Positions 37,632 through 42,639 of a stretch of DNA of 53,931 nt are shown in pieces. Position 1 is the first letter of the stretch, and every line of letters starts with the position of its first letter. The notes under the pieces were generated by a model that did not search any database, was not told the DNA's origin, and worked only from the letters and a program-made list of their open reading frames with translations. The stretch is from positions 1 through 53,931 of the forward strand of contig JAJVIN010000049.1 in assembly GCA_022071945.1 (NCBI GenBank). The letters are read 5' to 3'. This stretch comes from Thermoanaerobaculia bacterium. Lineage in GTDB: Bacteria > Acidobacteriota > Thermoanaerobaculia > UBA5066. A program made the position numbers and the translations under genes.

Positions 37632-38441
37632 ATGCTGATCGAGACGCCGTCCATCGACATCGATGCGTATCTCGCGCGAATAGGGTTTTCCGGCAGCCGG
37701 GACGCCTGCCTCGAGGTTCTCGAGGGGCTGCACGAGTGCCACGCGGGAACCGTCCCTTTCGAGAACCTCGACGTTCGCCTCGGGCGTCCGATCCTTCTCG
37801 ACCTGGCGTCGCTAGAGTCCAAGCTCGTGGGGGCCAGGCGTGGAGGCTACTGCTTCGAACAGAACACATTGTTCGCAGCCGTGCTGTCTGCACTCGGGTT
37901 CGAGGTCGCCACGCTCGAGGCTCGCGTCAGGCCGCCGGGTGCGGCTTCCGTCTTGCCTCGCACGCACATGGTGCTGGGTGTGCGAGTTGGCGAGAAGGCC
38001 TTCCTCGCCGACGTCGGATTCGGAGGTGACGGTCCGCTGTGGCCCGTCCCCATGGACGGGACCGTCTCGTCCCAGCCGGGCGCGGATCTCCGGGTGGTGG
38101 AGGAAGGAACGTGGCGGGTTCTTCAGTCCGGAAAGGGTGGGACGTGGACAGATCTCTACGCATTCAGCGGCGAGCCGGTCTTTCCCGTGGACTACGAGGT
38201 CGCGAATCACTTCACGTCCACTCACCCGAGGTCGACATTCGTGAGGAGCCTCACGGTCCAGCTTTCGACTCGCGAGGCCCGCTACATCCTGAGAGGACGT
38301 TCCTACACCGTGAAGCGCGAGGGTGCCGGGGAGTGCAGGGAGCTTTCGATGGAGGAGATCCCCAACCTGCTCCGGGAGAGGTTCGGCTTGGATCTTCCGG
38401 ACGCGGATCTCCTGCGCGCCGCTGGTGAAGCGCCCAGCTGA
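37632..38441 (+). CDS. Arylamine N-acetyltransferase
   Basis: The 269-residue product transfers an acetyl group from acetyl-CoA to arylamines or hydrazines. The Cys-His-Asp triad is readable: Cys in RRGGYCFEQN, His in PRTHMVLGV and Asp in FLADVGFGG. HAGTVPFENLDVRLGRPILL near the start is a second family mark. Length is normal for bacterial NATs (about 270-280). GAGGGAAGGGA precedes the ATG. It ends 25 bases from the convergent glnD-like gene. Confidence 0.92.
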   Translation: MLIETPSIDIDAYLARIGFSGSRDACLEVLEGLHECHAGTVPFENLDVRLGRPILLDLASLESKLVGARRGGYCFEQNTLFAAVLSALGFEVATLEARVRPPGAASVLPRTHMVLGVRVGEKAFLADVGFGGDGPLWPVPMDGTVSSQPGADLRVVEEGTWRVLQSGKGGTWTDLYAFSGEPVFPVDYEVANHFTSTHPRSTFVRSLTVQLSTREARYILRGRSYTVKREGAGECRELSMEEIPNLLRERFGLDLPDADLLRAAGEAPS

Positions 38442-38466: not shown

Positions 38467-41190
38467 TCAACGGCCAGCCCTGCGCTTCCGCGGGTTTGGC
38501 TCCGGCTTCGGAGCGAGCGCATCGAGGAGAGCGCGCTCGACATCGGGCAGCCGTTCGGGTGTGAGCTTGCCGCCGGCCTCCGTGACATAGAAGACGTCGA
38601 GAGCCTGCGCCCCGTCGGTGGCGATTTTCGCGAAGGTGATGTTGAGGCCGAGGCGCGCGAGGGTGCCGGCGATGCCGAAGGCGAGCCCGGGACGGTCCGC
38701 GGCCCGGACATCGATGACGGTGGCGGCCGTCGATGTCTCGTTGTCGAAGCGGACCGAGGGGGGACGGGAAGCTCGCCCCATGAGGCGTCTGCCCTCCCGC
38801 GAAGCCGAGGCGGACCAGCTCGCCATGAGTTCATCCACCGAGCGCTTCCCGGCAACGACCTCACCGAGATCACGGGCAATCTTCTCCCTTCTCTCGAGAC
38901 TGACCGGTCCGTGCCCCGGGTTCTCGGAGAGCGTGAAGGTGTCGAGGACCACTCCATCCTCGCGGACGAAGAGGTCCACGGCGAGGATGTCGATTCCGTT
39001 CGCGGTCAGAGTCCCCGCGACCTTGGCGAAAAGACCGGGGTGGTCGCCGGCGGTGAGGGCCATCTCCGTGCCCCGCCCGCCCTCGAGATCGTGCCATTCG
39101 ACGGCGGCGGGCGCCTCCAAACGACGGGACGCGAGCCGGAAGTGGCGCACCATCCGGTCCGTGCCATTCGCGCGCAGATAGCGCTCCGTCAGCATCGAGA
39201 AGTGCCTCTCGATGGCGGCCGGCGGGAACTCGTCCCGCAGAGCCTCCACGGCGCCGGCTCGCGCGCGGTCGCTCGCCCCTTCCTCCGTGGCACTCCCCGT
39301 CAAGTGGGCGCGGGCGCGACGGTAGAGATCGAGGAGGAGGGCCCCCTTCCACTCGCTGAACGCTCCCGGAGCGATTGCGCACATGTCCGCGTAGGAAAGG
39401 AGCAGCAGCATGTCGAGGCGTTCGAGGCTACCGGCGCGGGCCGCGAACGAGGCGATCAACGACGGCTCCGAAAGGTCCCGGCGCTGAGAGGTTCGAGACA
39501 TGTCCAGGTGCCGCCTCACGAGGAAGTGGATGTCCCCGGCGGTCTTCTCCTCGATTCCCAGACGGCTCGTGATCTGCCTGGCGAGCCGTGCCCCCTCCTC
39601 GGCGTGCCCCACCCCGCGAACCTTCCCGATGACGTGAAGGAGGGTCCCGAGGTAGAGAGGCCTCACGTCCGGGATGTCGTCGAGGACTCGGCCGAAGGGA
39701 AGCGCGGCCCTTGCCTCGCCGGCTGCCAGGGCGTCGAGGGCCTCGACGGCGCGCAGGGCGTGTTCGTCCACGGTGTAGCGGTGGACATCGTCGTGCTCGA
39801 CGAGGAAGGTGACGCACTCCCACTCCGGAAGGAGCCGCCCCAGATACCCCGTCTCGTGCATGGCTCTCACGGCCGGCCCCACTCGGCCCCGCCGATCGAA
39901 GAGCTTGAGGAAGGCCGCGCCCGTCGGCGGAGATTCCCGGACTTTCTGCCCGACGAGATGAAGCCTCGCCTGGATCATGTGGTGCAGATCGTCGGAGAGG
40001 GGGACCTTCTCGGCCTGCGAGATGGCGAAGGCGTCGAGCAGGTGCCGCGCGCCCCCGGAGGTCTCGGGAAGGGAGCGGAACAGCTGCCCCTCCCGGATCT
40101 CGAACCCCCCGTCGATCGGGCGCCGGCGAGTGGGTGAGGGGTTCGCGCGGCCGAAACTCTCGAGGTGGCGCAGCAAGAACCCCCGGCGAAGCTCACTCAA
40201 CTCGGAGGCACGCCGGTAGTAATCCCGCATGAAGACCTCGGAGGCGAGACGGCCCCCCCTGGCCCCGTATCCGAGATTCGCCGCGACCTCTTCCTGCAGG
40301 TCCAGGGAAAGCCGGTCGTTCTTTCGCCCCGAGAGGAAATGGAGCTCGTTGCGAACGCGGGAGAGAAAGTCGAGAGAGAGCCGGGCGGCGTGGTGCTCGC
40401 TCGCCGAGAGAGAGCCCTCCGAGTGCAGCGCGGCCAGTCCCCGGCTTCCGAAACGCGCATGCCCCACCCACAGGATCGCGTGCAGGTCCCTGAGGCCGCC
40501 CACCCCTTCTTTCACGTCGGGCTCCTGGATCGCCACGGCGCCGCCGCATCTCGCGTGCCGCTCGGCGATCTCGGTGCGGATCCGCTCCAGGAACTCCTCC
40601 GTCTGCCGCCGGTCCCACAGGAGTCTCGCGTCGATGTCCTTCTGCACGGCGTCGAAGAGGTCCCGCTTGCCCATGAGAAACCGGGCCTCGGTCAGAGCCG
40701 TCCGGAAGCGGAAGTCTTCCCGCACCCTCCTCAGGCACTCGCGCAGCGAAACCTGGTTCTGGACGGAAGCCAGGCCCGTCTTGGCGAGAAGCCCCGTGGC
40801 GCGCTCCACGATCGGGCCCAGCAGATCCGCGCCCCCGCCCTCGTGAATGAAGGTCAACCCCACGGAGGAAAACGGGGCGAGCTCGTTTCGGCCATACCCG
40901 CCGGTGGCGACGATCGCGACCCTGTCCCGATCGGTTCCCGTCTCCGAAGAGGCGAGCCCGCAGAGACGCTTGACGACCAGGTCGATTTGAAGAGTCCGCT
41001 CCGAGCAGGTCTGCAAGCCTCCCAAACCGGCCCGATGACGCTTCCGAAGGTGCAGGGTCTCGGTCTCGAGGTGACGTCTCACGGCCTCCACGTGAACGGG
41101 CATCCCCGACTCGGAAAGAGGCTCCGCTCTGTCGAGGCCTCGCTTCCGGCCGTTTCCCAGAAACCGCAGCTGCGTGATGTTGTCTCTCAT
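38467..41190 (-). CDS. glnD: GlnD homologue with degenerate uridylyltransferase and HD active sites
   Basis: The 907-residue product has full GlnD architecture: nucleotidyltransferase head (IVATGGYGRNELAPF), GlnD middle region (QEPDVKEGVGGLRDLHAILW), HD region (DVHRYTVDEHALRAVEAL) and two C-terminal ACT domains (GDHPGLFAKVAGTLTANGID; ADRPGLAFGIAGTLARLGLN). GlnD normally adds and removes UMP on PII. Here the SDxD metal pair is SSVG, the HD-type HDIGK is HVIGK, and the later GDH is VGH. So neither activity is expected, while the ACT domains look intact. The start is uncertain: ATG 41190 or 41103. The missing acids are single or few base changes with the frame kept open. Confidence 0.88.
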   Translation of the reverse strand: MRDNITQLRFLGNGRKRGLDRAEPLSESGMPVHVEAVRRHLETETLHLRKRHRAGLGGLQTCSERTLQIDLVVKRLCGLASSETGTDRDRVAIVATGGYGRNELAPFSSVGLTFIHEGGGADLLGPIVERATGLLAKTGLASVQNQVSLRECLRRVREDFRFRTALTEARFLMGKRDLFDAVQKDIDARLLWDRRQTEEFLERIRTEIAERHARCGGAVAIQEPDVKEGVGGLRDLHAILWVGHARFGSRGLAALHSEGSLSASEHHAARLSLDFLSRVRNELHFLSGRKNDRLSLDLQEEVAANLGYGARGGRLASEVFMRDYYRRASELSELRRGFLLRHLESFGRANPSPTRRRPIDGGFEIREGQLFRSLPETSGGARHLLDAFAISQAEKVPLSDDLHHMIQARLHLVGQKVRESPPTGAAFLKLFDRRGRVGPAVRAMHETGYLGRLLPEWECVTFLVEHDDVHRYTVDEHALRAVEALDALAAGEARAALPFGRVLDDIPDVRPLYLGTLLHVIGKVRGVGHAEEGARLARQITSRLGIEEKTAGDIHFLVRRHLDMSRTSQRRDLSEPSLIASFAARAGSLERLDMLLLLSYADMCAIAPGAFSEWKGALLLDLYRRARAHLTGSATEEGASDRARAGAVEALRDEFPPAAIERHFSMLTERYLRANGTDRMVRHFRLASRRLEAPAAVEWHDLEGGRGTEMALTAGDHPGLFAKVAGTLTANGIDILAVDLFVREDGVVLDTFTLSENPGHGPVSLERREKIARDLGEVVAGKRSVDELMASWSASASREGRRLMGRASRPPSVRFDNETSTAATVIDVRAADRPGLAFGIAGTLARLGLNITFAKIATDGAQALDVFYVTEAGGKLTPERLPDVERALLDALAPKPEPNPRKRRAGR

Positions 41191-41796
41191 TTCGACCGCC
41201 AGAAAGGACCGAATCCCACGGAGAAGAGTGCCCGGCACCCAGCTGTCCAGCGGGGAGAGGGCAACACCTCGCCCTGATCGAAGCACCTTTCGTGCCCTGG
41301 CCCCCTTCCCCGGCCGGATCCCCTCAAGTTGTTGTTCAGGAGGGTATTGTCTGGCATGACGGGGCGGCAAGAGAGGGAGCATCCCTTACATTAATGTTTG
41401 ACAAATACAAGAAGTCGACAAGTATGTCCCATGGAGGATGAGTCGGGCATCCTCGGGGCCGGGGGACGACCCCTCAGGCGCTCACGCGCCGCTTCCCCTT
41501 CGTCAGGGGAGGCTTGGGGTTCCGATGTCGTTCGCCAAGGGAGGAAGCCCCGTTGTCGGTGCCTGCGGCCCTACCGGTGGACAACCCCTCGCGCGAAGGA
41601 GTTCGGGCAGAATTCGCTCGGACTTCGCCGCAAAAATGTCGGAAAGTCGTCTCTGGACTTCTGACTTGTCGGATTTGAGGGGCGCGGTTGACGTTCATGG
41701 CGGGGACCCGGCCTTTTCCGCATAGTAGAGTCCTCCCCCGAATTCGTCCCCGGGCCGGGACCCCTTGGCCGGGCACCCGGCGTCTTTGCGCCGAGA
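41191..41796. other. Intergenic region without a convincing gene
   Basis: About 600 bases separate the glnD-like gene from the divergent nucleosidase-family gene. An AT-rich patch at about 41385-41425 contains TTGACA at 41398-41403 and could hold promoters in either direction, but no -10 is convincing. Short open frames here have no support from codon use or similarity that I can see. Confidence 0.4.
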
Positions 41797-42639
41797 ATGC
41801 AGAATCCGAGTCCGTCGCGCCCCGTGGCCCTCGTTGTCCCGATGGAGGAGGAATTCCTCCCGTACCGTGACTGTCTCTCGGGTCTCGTTCGCCTCCGCGG
41901 CGACCACGGTCCGTGGGAGTTCTTCGAGGGCCGGGCGGGCCCGGCGAGGGTCATCGCCGTTCTGTCGGACTGCGGTCCCGTGAACGCCGCGGCCGCGCTG
42001 GAGCGCCTCGTCACAGAGTTTGGACCCGGCCTCGTTCTGACCGGTGGTTCGGCGGGGGCTCACGATCCCGGGCTCCTGCCGGGCGACGTCGTCATCGGCG
42101 CGCGGTACCGGATCCTGTTCCCGGTCGGGCAACAGCTATCGCGGCAGGCCCGGGGCCGTCACTTGAAGGGATTCCGGTTCCGCCGGGACGGAAAGCGGGT
42201 CCACTCGGACTCGTTCGAGTCCCTGCCCGATCTCGTCCGGGCGGCGGCCGTCATCGCGGAGACCGAGCTGGGAGAATCGGGTGCCTGGAAGGGACCTGGC
42301 TGGCCGCCGGAGGTCCCGTTGAGAGCAGGGAGGGTCTCGGTGGGACTGATCGGATCCTCTGACTCGTGGACGACGAGCGAGGACGAGCTCCGCGAGCTCC
42401 ACGGCTACTACGGGTCTCTCTGCGAGGACATGGAGAGCGCCTACATCGCGCAGCTCTCCGCTCTCCACGGTCTCCCGTTCCTCTCCGTCCGGACGATCAG
42501 CGACAACGAGGCGGCGTGTCCGCTCGCGGCGTCTTCTGCCAACCAGGTGATCGCCCTGGCCGGGGAGAGGAGCGCCCGGATCCTCGCCCGGGTGGCGGCG
42601 GAGTGGGGCAGACGAGCCACCCCGGAAAGCGCGGAATGA
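41797..42639 (+). CDS. Nucleoside phosphorylase-superfamily protein (MTA/SAH nucleosidase-like)
   Basis: The 280-residue product fits the PNP/UDP phosphorylase superfamily: VALVVPMEEEFLPYRDCLSG at the start, VIAVLSDCGPVNAAAALERL with TGGSAGAHDPGLLPGDVVIG in the middle, and CEDMESAYIAQLSALHGLPF with LSVRTISDNE near the end. The EDMES and ISDN marks match 5'-methylthioadenosine/S-adenosylhomocysteine nucleosidase (MxxE and D acid). It is longer than MTAN (about 230), with an insertion around residues 105-190. Substrate is not certain. Confidence 0.8.
   Translation: MQNPSPSRPVALVVPMEEEFLPYRDCLSGLVRLRGDHGPWEFFEGRAGPARVIAVLSDCGPVNAAAALERLVTEFGPGLVLTGGSAGAHDPGLLPGDVVIGARYRILFPVGQQLSRQARGRHLKGFRFRRDGKRVHSDSFESLPDLVRAAAVIAETELGESGAWKGPGWPPEVPLRAGRVSVGLIGSSDSWTTSEDELRELHGYYGSLCEDMESAYIAQLSALHGLPFLSVRTISDNEAACPLAASSANQVIALAGERSARILARVAAEWGRRATPESAE

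Follow-up and report, generated by a model that had tools for sequence, protein, structure and literature searches.

Can a GlnD protein that has lost the catalytic acids of both its sites still be kept by selection? The question is raised by a gene in the window analysed here, a stretch of 53,931 nucleotides that forms one entire contig (C40) of the source genome (G000), a MAG of 6.17 Mb in 69 contigs which is 96.2% complete. The earlier note on this DNA described a full-length GlnD homologue with an open frame of 907 codons, the GlnD domain order including two ACT domains, and both catalytic sites broken. Our analysis confirmed this description. The protein scored 588 bits against the NCBIfam GlnD equivalog TIGR01693 (cut-off 519), with a match over its full length, and Pfam matches were obtained for GlnD_UR_UTase, HD and two ACT domains, giving the order NT, UR_UTase, HD, ACT, ACT. 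The frame on the minus strand (38467-41190) contains no stops. Its start codon is uncertain, with in-frame ATGs at 41382, 41190 and 41103.

The protein is a GlnD also by descent. In the tree it groups with the GlnDs of G001 and L151, and it is 55-58% identical to intact acidobacterial orthologues. G001, a MAG labelled 'uncultured Acidobacteria bacterium', is the nearest named relative with a GlnD orthologue. L151 (CALAOT010000060.1) is a contig labelled as an Opitutaceae MAG. Its GlnD is 69% identical to that of G001 and is accompanied by a Tyr51 PII and AmtB; the contig is probably acidobacterial and either misbinned or mislabelled. Both were found by a profile search of genome contigs with the pair alignment; a search with the window protein alone gave no match. 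The plasmid collection contained only distant GlnDs of about 32% identity, and Rfam gave no match in the window. A second, intact glnD, whose presence the earlier note had proposed to check, was not found in G000 at its completeness of 96.2%. The features discussed below are collected in Table 1.

Table 1. Positions of the window GlnD, its domains and altered sites, its flanking genes, and the loci of the ACT-bearing GlnE.
Feature	Positions	Strand	Remarks
glnD homologue	38467..41190	-	907 codons; both catalytic sites broken; sole GlnD of the genome
Nucleotidyltransferase (UTase) core, residues 92-165	40696..40917	-	11/27 conserved positions lost; GGYGR, ELAPFS kept
SDxD metal pair, now S109-V-G111	40858..40866	-	
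UTase site, second part	40750..40785	-	LWDxGLxVGHSxR in relatives, here LAKTGLASVQNQV
GlnD_UR_UTase helical domain (PF08335)	40156..40593	-	27/27 invariant columns kept, E223 included
HD (uridylyl-removing) domain	39295..39801	-	fold conserved
HD signature Asp, now Val520	39631..39633	-	H477, H519, D602 kept
ACT domain 1	38821..39075	-	4/18 conserved positions lost
ACT domain 2	38506..38730	-	0/23 conserved positions lost
Flanking gene, arylamine N-acetyltransferase family (PF00797)	37632..38441	+	
Flanking gene, nucleoside phosphorylase family (PF01048)	41797..42639	+	
ACT-bearing GlnE	L157:10059-13829 (G000:C1, about 332058-335828); also L159, L158		

We compared both sites with 89 other GlnDs, which came from a phylum search of 396 genomes, G001, the L151 contig and five loci labelled Proteobacteria. 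The nucleotidyltransferase signature of the window protein reads GGYGRNELAPFSSVGLTF. Where an active uridylyltransferase should carry the two aspartates of SDxD, it has S109 (codon TCC, 40864-40866) and G111 (codon GGG, 40858-40860). Both positions are aspartate in all 88 of the other GlnDs that have no gap there, and in G001 and L151 both codons are GAC. The earlier note had recognised the loss of this metal pair, but it placed the motif about 10 bases off. It had also raised the possibility that the catalytic acids are supplied by neighbouring positions. This was rejected by the alignment: there is no substitute acid at 109-111, and the next one, E117, lies beyond the predicted strand 110-116. 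Further losses in the same core are W136A, D137K, V142S, G143V, H144Q, S145N and R147V. The nearly invariant E223, positioned after the core, is retained; comparison with GlnE suggests that it may be the third catalytic acid.

The motif of the HD domain is LLHVIGKVRGVGH, in which valine (codon GTC, 39631-39633) replaces Asp520. The signature reads HVIGKVRG, compared to HDIGKGRD in G001 and HDFGKGRG in L151. Since position 520 is aspartate in 88 of the 89 other GlnDs, the reported change of HDIGK to HVIGK is a true departure from the family. An active uridylyl-removing enzyme should have the His/Asp pair at this place, of which the window protein keeps only H519. H470, H477, K523, H529 and D602 are retained as well. 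The reading of VGH as GDH with a lost catalytic acid had to be rejected, since the nearest intact relatives also have no acid there (GRH in G001, GGH in L151), which makes the position uninformative. The other exception at position 520 is the GlnD at L120 (G364:C692), which is the converse of the window case. Its SDxD is intact, its HD motif is degenerate (LLYQV, with Q and L at the Asp positions), and a Tyr51 PII lies beside it.

No substrate of GlnD other than PII is known (PMC4285133). In 11 genomes of the intact clade (G001, G449, G407, G235, G358, G481, G393, G227, G156, G451 and G217), the gene for a Tyr51 PII (T-loop RGxEY) adjoins glnD or lies up to about 2 kb away. It is directly downstream of glnD on the L151 contig, and outside the clade G364 and G267 also carry Tyr51 PII genes beside glnD. 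G235 has two GlnDs, on contigs C33 and C22 (L070 and L090), and a Tyr51 PII of a different subtype lies next to each of them. The glnD cluster of G001, as named from reading the translations, consists of an NtrC-like activator, AmtB, PII, porin, GlnD, antiporter, Tyr51 PII, a second AmtB and GlnA, with GlnE nearby. Unlike these intact loci, the window has no PII or Amt gene around glnD, and the flanking genes are unrelated. Since the contig spans the site, the loss of the glnD-PII adjacency in G000 is certain.

We found no Tyr51 PII among the four PII-like genes of G000, a result that carries the risk of the 4% missing from this 96.2% complete genome. The AmtB-linked PII has the T-loop YRGTTVKM, in which Tyr46 is kept and position 51 is valine, and this form is common to G001, G003, G005 and G451. 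G000 has one AmtB, compared to two in G001. A PII-like gene without Tyr51 lies at L038:6680-7069 (G000:C54), where, judging by the translations of its neighbours, it immediately follows a gene resembling a large RND metal-efflux pump and precedes one resembling a metal P-type ATPase.

The GlnE of G000 (P0003) is a full-length protein of 1256 amino acids with both nucleotidyltransferase halves. The motif is SDIDL in the first half and SDIEL in the second, where it resembles that of G001. Between the halves lies a GlnD-like ACT region, which matches the GlnD model in its C-terminal part (506-788) as well as ACT-like Pfam models. The region is also present in the GlnE of G001 and G003 (about 51% identity), and our literature search returned no description of a GlnE with an ACT region between its catalytic halves. 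GlnA retains the tyrosine site DIYSLTPEE. Adenylylation of glutamine synthetase is probably still present in G000, run by the ACT-bearing GlnE without PII-UMP, and GlnD would be freed from catalysis by such an arrangement.

Is the rest of the protein then decaying too? With the Tyr51 PII gone, the window GlnD could be a relic without a substrate, whose catalytic sites decayed first and whose remainder is to follow. The known function of GlnD requires the PII substrate (PMC4285133), and only 2 of the 148 near relatives (family and class) have a GlnD at all. G003, from the same family, has an ACT-bearing GlnE but lacks GlnD, and none of its three PIIs that were read carries Tyr51. Since most relatives live without GlnD, its complete loss is common and easily tolerated, and the window GlnD could be an intermediate. 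We consider this account unlikely, though deserving of serious weight, and the distribution of the changes speaks against it. When a column is counted as conserved if at most one of the other 12 clade members deviates, the window GlnD has lost 11 of 27 in the nucleotidyltransferase core, compared to 0-3 of 26-28 in the 12 intact members. Outside the core it has lost 21 of 179 (12%) on a terminal branch of 0.53, which is the level of intact enzymes on long branches (L064 13%, branch 0.57; L067 15%, 0.55; L070 10%, 0.46). The loss is 1/39 in UR_UTase and 7/53 in HD. The former, together with the untouched second ACT domain, is unlike a uniform relaxation. The invariant columns changed in the region of the first ACT domain are L710M and D784S. 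Among strictly invariant columns, 10 of 22 are lost in the core and 11 of 113 outside it (Fisher p = 2e-4, with the core bounds taken from the fold but set when the loss of the motif was already apparent).

Substitution rates gave the same picture. Between G000 and G001, dN is 0.29 for GlnD outside the core, 0.29 for GlnE and 0.55 for the GlnD core. The dN/dS check proposed in the earlier note could be carried through in this part, placing GlnD outside the core at the level of GlnE; since dS is saturated, omega (branch dN/dS) was discarded and we relied on dN and conserved-site loss instead. We also simulated neutral evolution, with substitutions only and starting from an intact relative. About 0.25 changes per site were needed to alter 41% of the core codons, which produced about 8 stops. 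None of 200 runs was free of stops at 0.25 changes per site, and 2.5% were at 0.10. Since neutral erosion of the core would leave so many stops and the actual frame has none, it was probably under selection after the release of the core. The AlphaFold2 model, whose input alignment included intact homologues, is confident nearly throughout (mean pLDDT 89.5, core blocks 85-96). Both ACT domains are folded in it, and the model is structurally similar to both halves of E. coli GlnE as well as to tRNA nucleotidyltransferases. The stops, frameshifts and uniform loss of conserved sites that mark a pseudogene are not seen here: the frame is open and the losses are concentrated in the core. The loss of catalytic residues with purifying selection on the remainder is the pattern of a pseudoenzyme, seen in a single genome. 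As far as sequence conservation in one MAG can tell, the evidence favours retention over a relic.

Some catalysis might have survived, either in an HD site working with H477, H519 and D602 or in a nucleotidyltransferase core that uses other acids. K523 and the remaining HD ligands are retained, the HD domain is not relaxed overall and E223 is conserved, all of which would fit this. However, the missing HD aspartate is almost invariant in the family, positions 109-111 contain no acid, and no PII that could be uridylylated was found in G000, which makes residual activity improbable. Even less credit can be given to the idea that the AmtB-linked PII without Tyr51 is bound by the changed enzyme and modified at another residue. 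Tyr46 of its T-loop would offer a site, but relatives without GlnD (G003, G005) have the same V51 PII, and the nucleotidyltransferase site has no metal pair. A sequencing, assembly or binning artefact, for which the origin from a single MAG could speak, is scarcely believable, since the codons of D109, D111 and G524 each lie two bases away from at least one intact relative and so do not resemble single-base errors, ten invariant core residues have changed in an unbroken frame, the codon-position GC is like that of neighbouring genes, and the gene is embedded in a contig of 54 kb.

We favour, with somewhat more confidence than doubt and on the basis of one MAG, the reading that the window GlnD is a pseudoenzyme, kept most likely as a non-enzymatic, glutamine-responsive scaffold. 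Since the ACT, HD and UR_UTase parts, through which GlnD perceives glutamine and relays the signal, were kept while those for UMP transfer were lost, a glutamine-responsive binding protein would be the most economical explanation. The interpretation in the earlier note is borne out in part. That the GlnD is enzymatically dead and maintained for another role is supported by the lack of a second glnD, by constraint at the level of intact enzymes outside the core, and by the open frame. Its proposal of a PII-binding sensor is less clear, since the Tyr51 PII is absent and G000 has only PIIs without this tyrosine.

The ancestor would have had the ordinary pair that the relatives retain, GlnD beside a Tyr51 PII. 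Comparison with the relatives shows that in this lineage the Tyr51 PII and its AmtB were lost, the metal acids of the uridylyltransferase and the HD aspartate were replaced and the uridylyltransferase core eroded, probably in this order. Conservation indicates that selection went on acting on the helical UR_UTase domain, on the HD fold and on both ACT domains. Conservation of the ACT domains suggests that the window GlnD may still sense glutamine: its binding would cause a conformational change and thereby alter the binding of a partner, for which the AmtB-linked PII without Tyr51 and GlnE are candidates. We propose only tentatively the more specific possibility of a stand-alone glutamine-responsive regulator that works via protein binding, without nucleotidylation or a Tyr51 PII, perhaps on the ACT-bearing GlnE.

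The window GlnD is a variant of a known family and not a new kind of system. It shares the complete domain order with GlnD (TIGR01693) and differs by its replaced catalytic acids, its eroded core and the lack of a detected Tyr51 PII. The non-enzymatic role has a precedent in S. meliloti, where GlnD has PII-independent effects on growth, symbiosis and transcription (PMC3596328). The GlnD-sm2 protein of this species also lacks uridylyltransferase activity. However, it was made in the laboratory by deleting the N-terminal domain, and the GlnD of S. meliloti is normally active, whereas the change in the window is natural and the domain fold is kept. In plant ACR (ACT domain repeat) proteins, such as ACR11, which works on glutamate synthase through direct interaction, GlnD-type ACT domains function with no enzyme domain attached (PMC3173338, PMC4944146). 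These proteins consist of ACT domains alone, whereas the window GlnD retains the NT, UR_UTase and HD folds. Campylobacter jejuni, whose genome lacks the usual partner PII, has a protein of unknown function with a GlnD-like domain (PMC12795558); there GlnE is absent, whereas G000 has it. In our literature search, conducted mostly outside subscription journals, no natural GlnD pseudoenzyme was described, and work on pseudogenes with PII and on PII-independent glutamine sensors contained no such case.

To our knowledge, GlnD has been regarded as a sensor whose sole output is the modification of PII, and a PII-independent role has so far been suggested mainly by S. meliloti mutants. A natural GlnD without both activities and without its substrate, yet conserved elsewhere, would split sensing from catalysis and make the suspected non-enzymatic role directly testable. 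With the catalytic acids and the Tyr51 PII lost together, it would also provide a clean natural example of how a signalling pathway is dismantled. If the tentative reading of a stand-alone regulator is true, glutamine sensing in this lineage would have moved from covalent PII signalling to protein contacts driven by the ACT domains.
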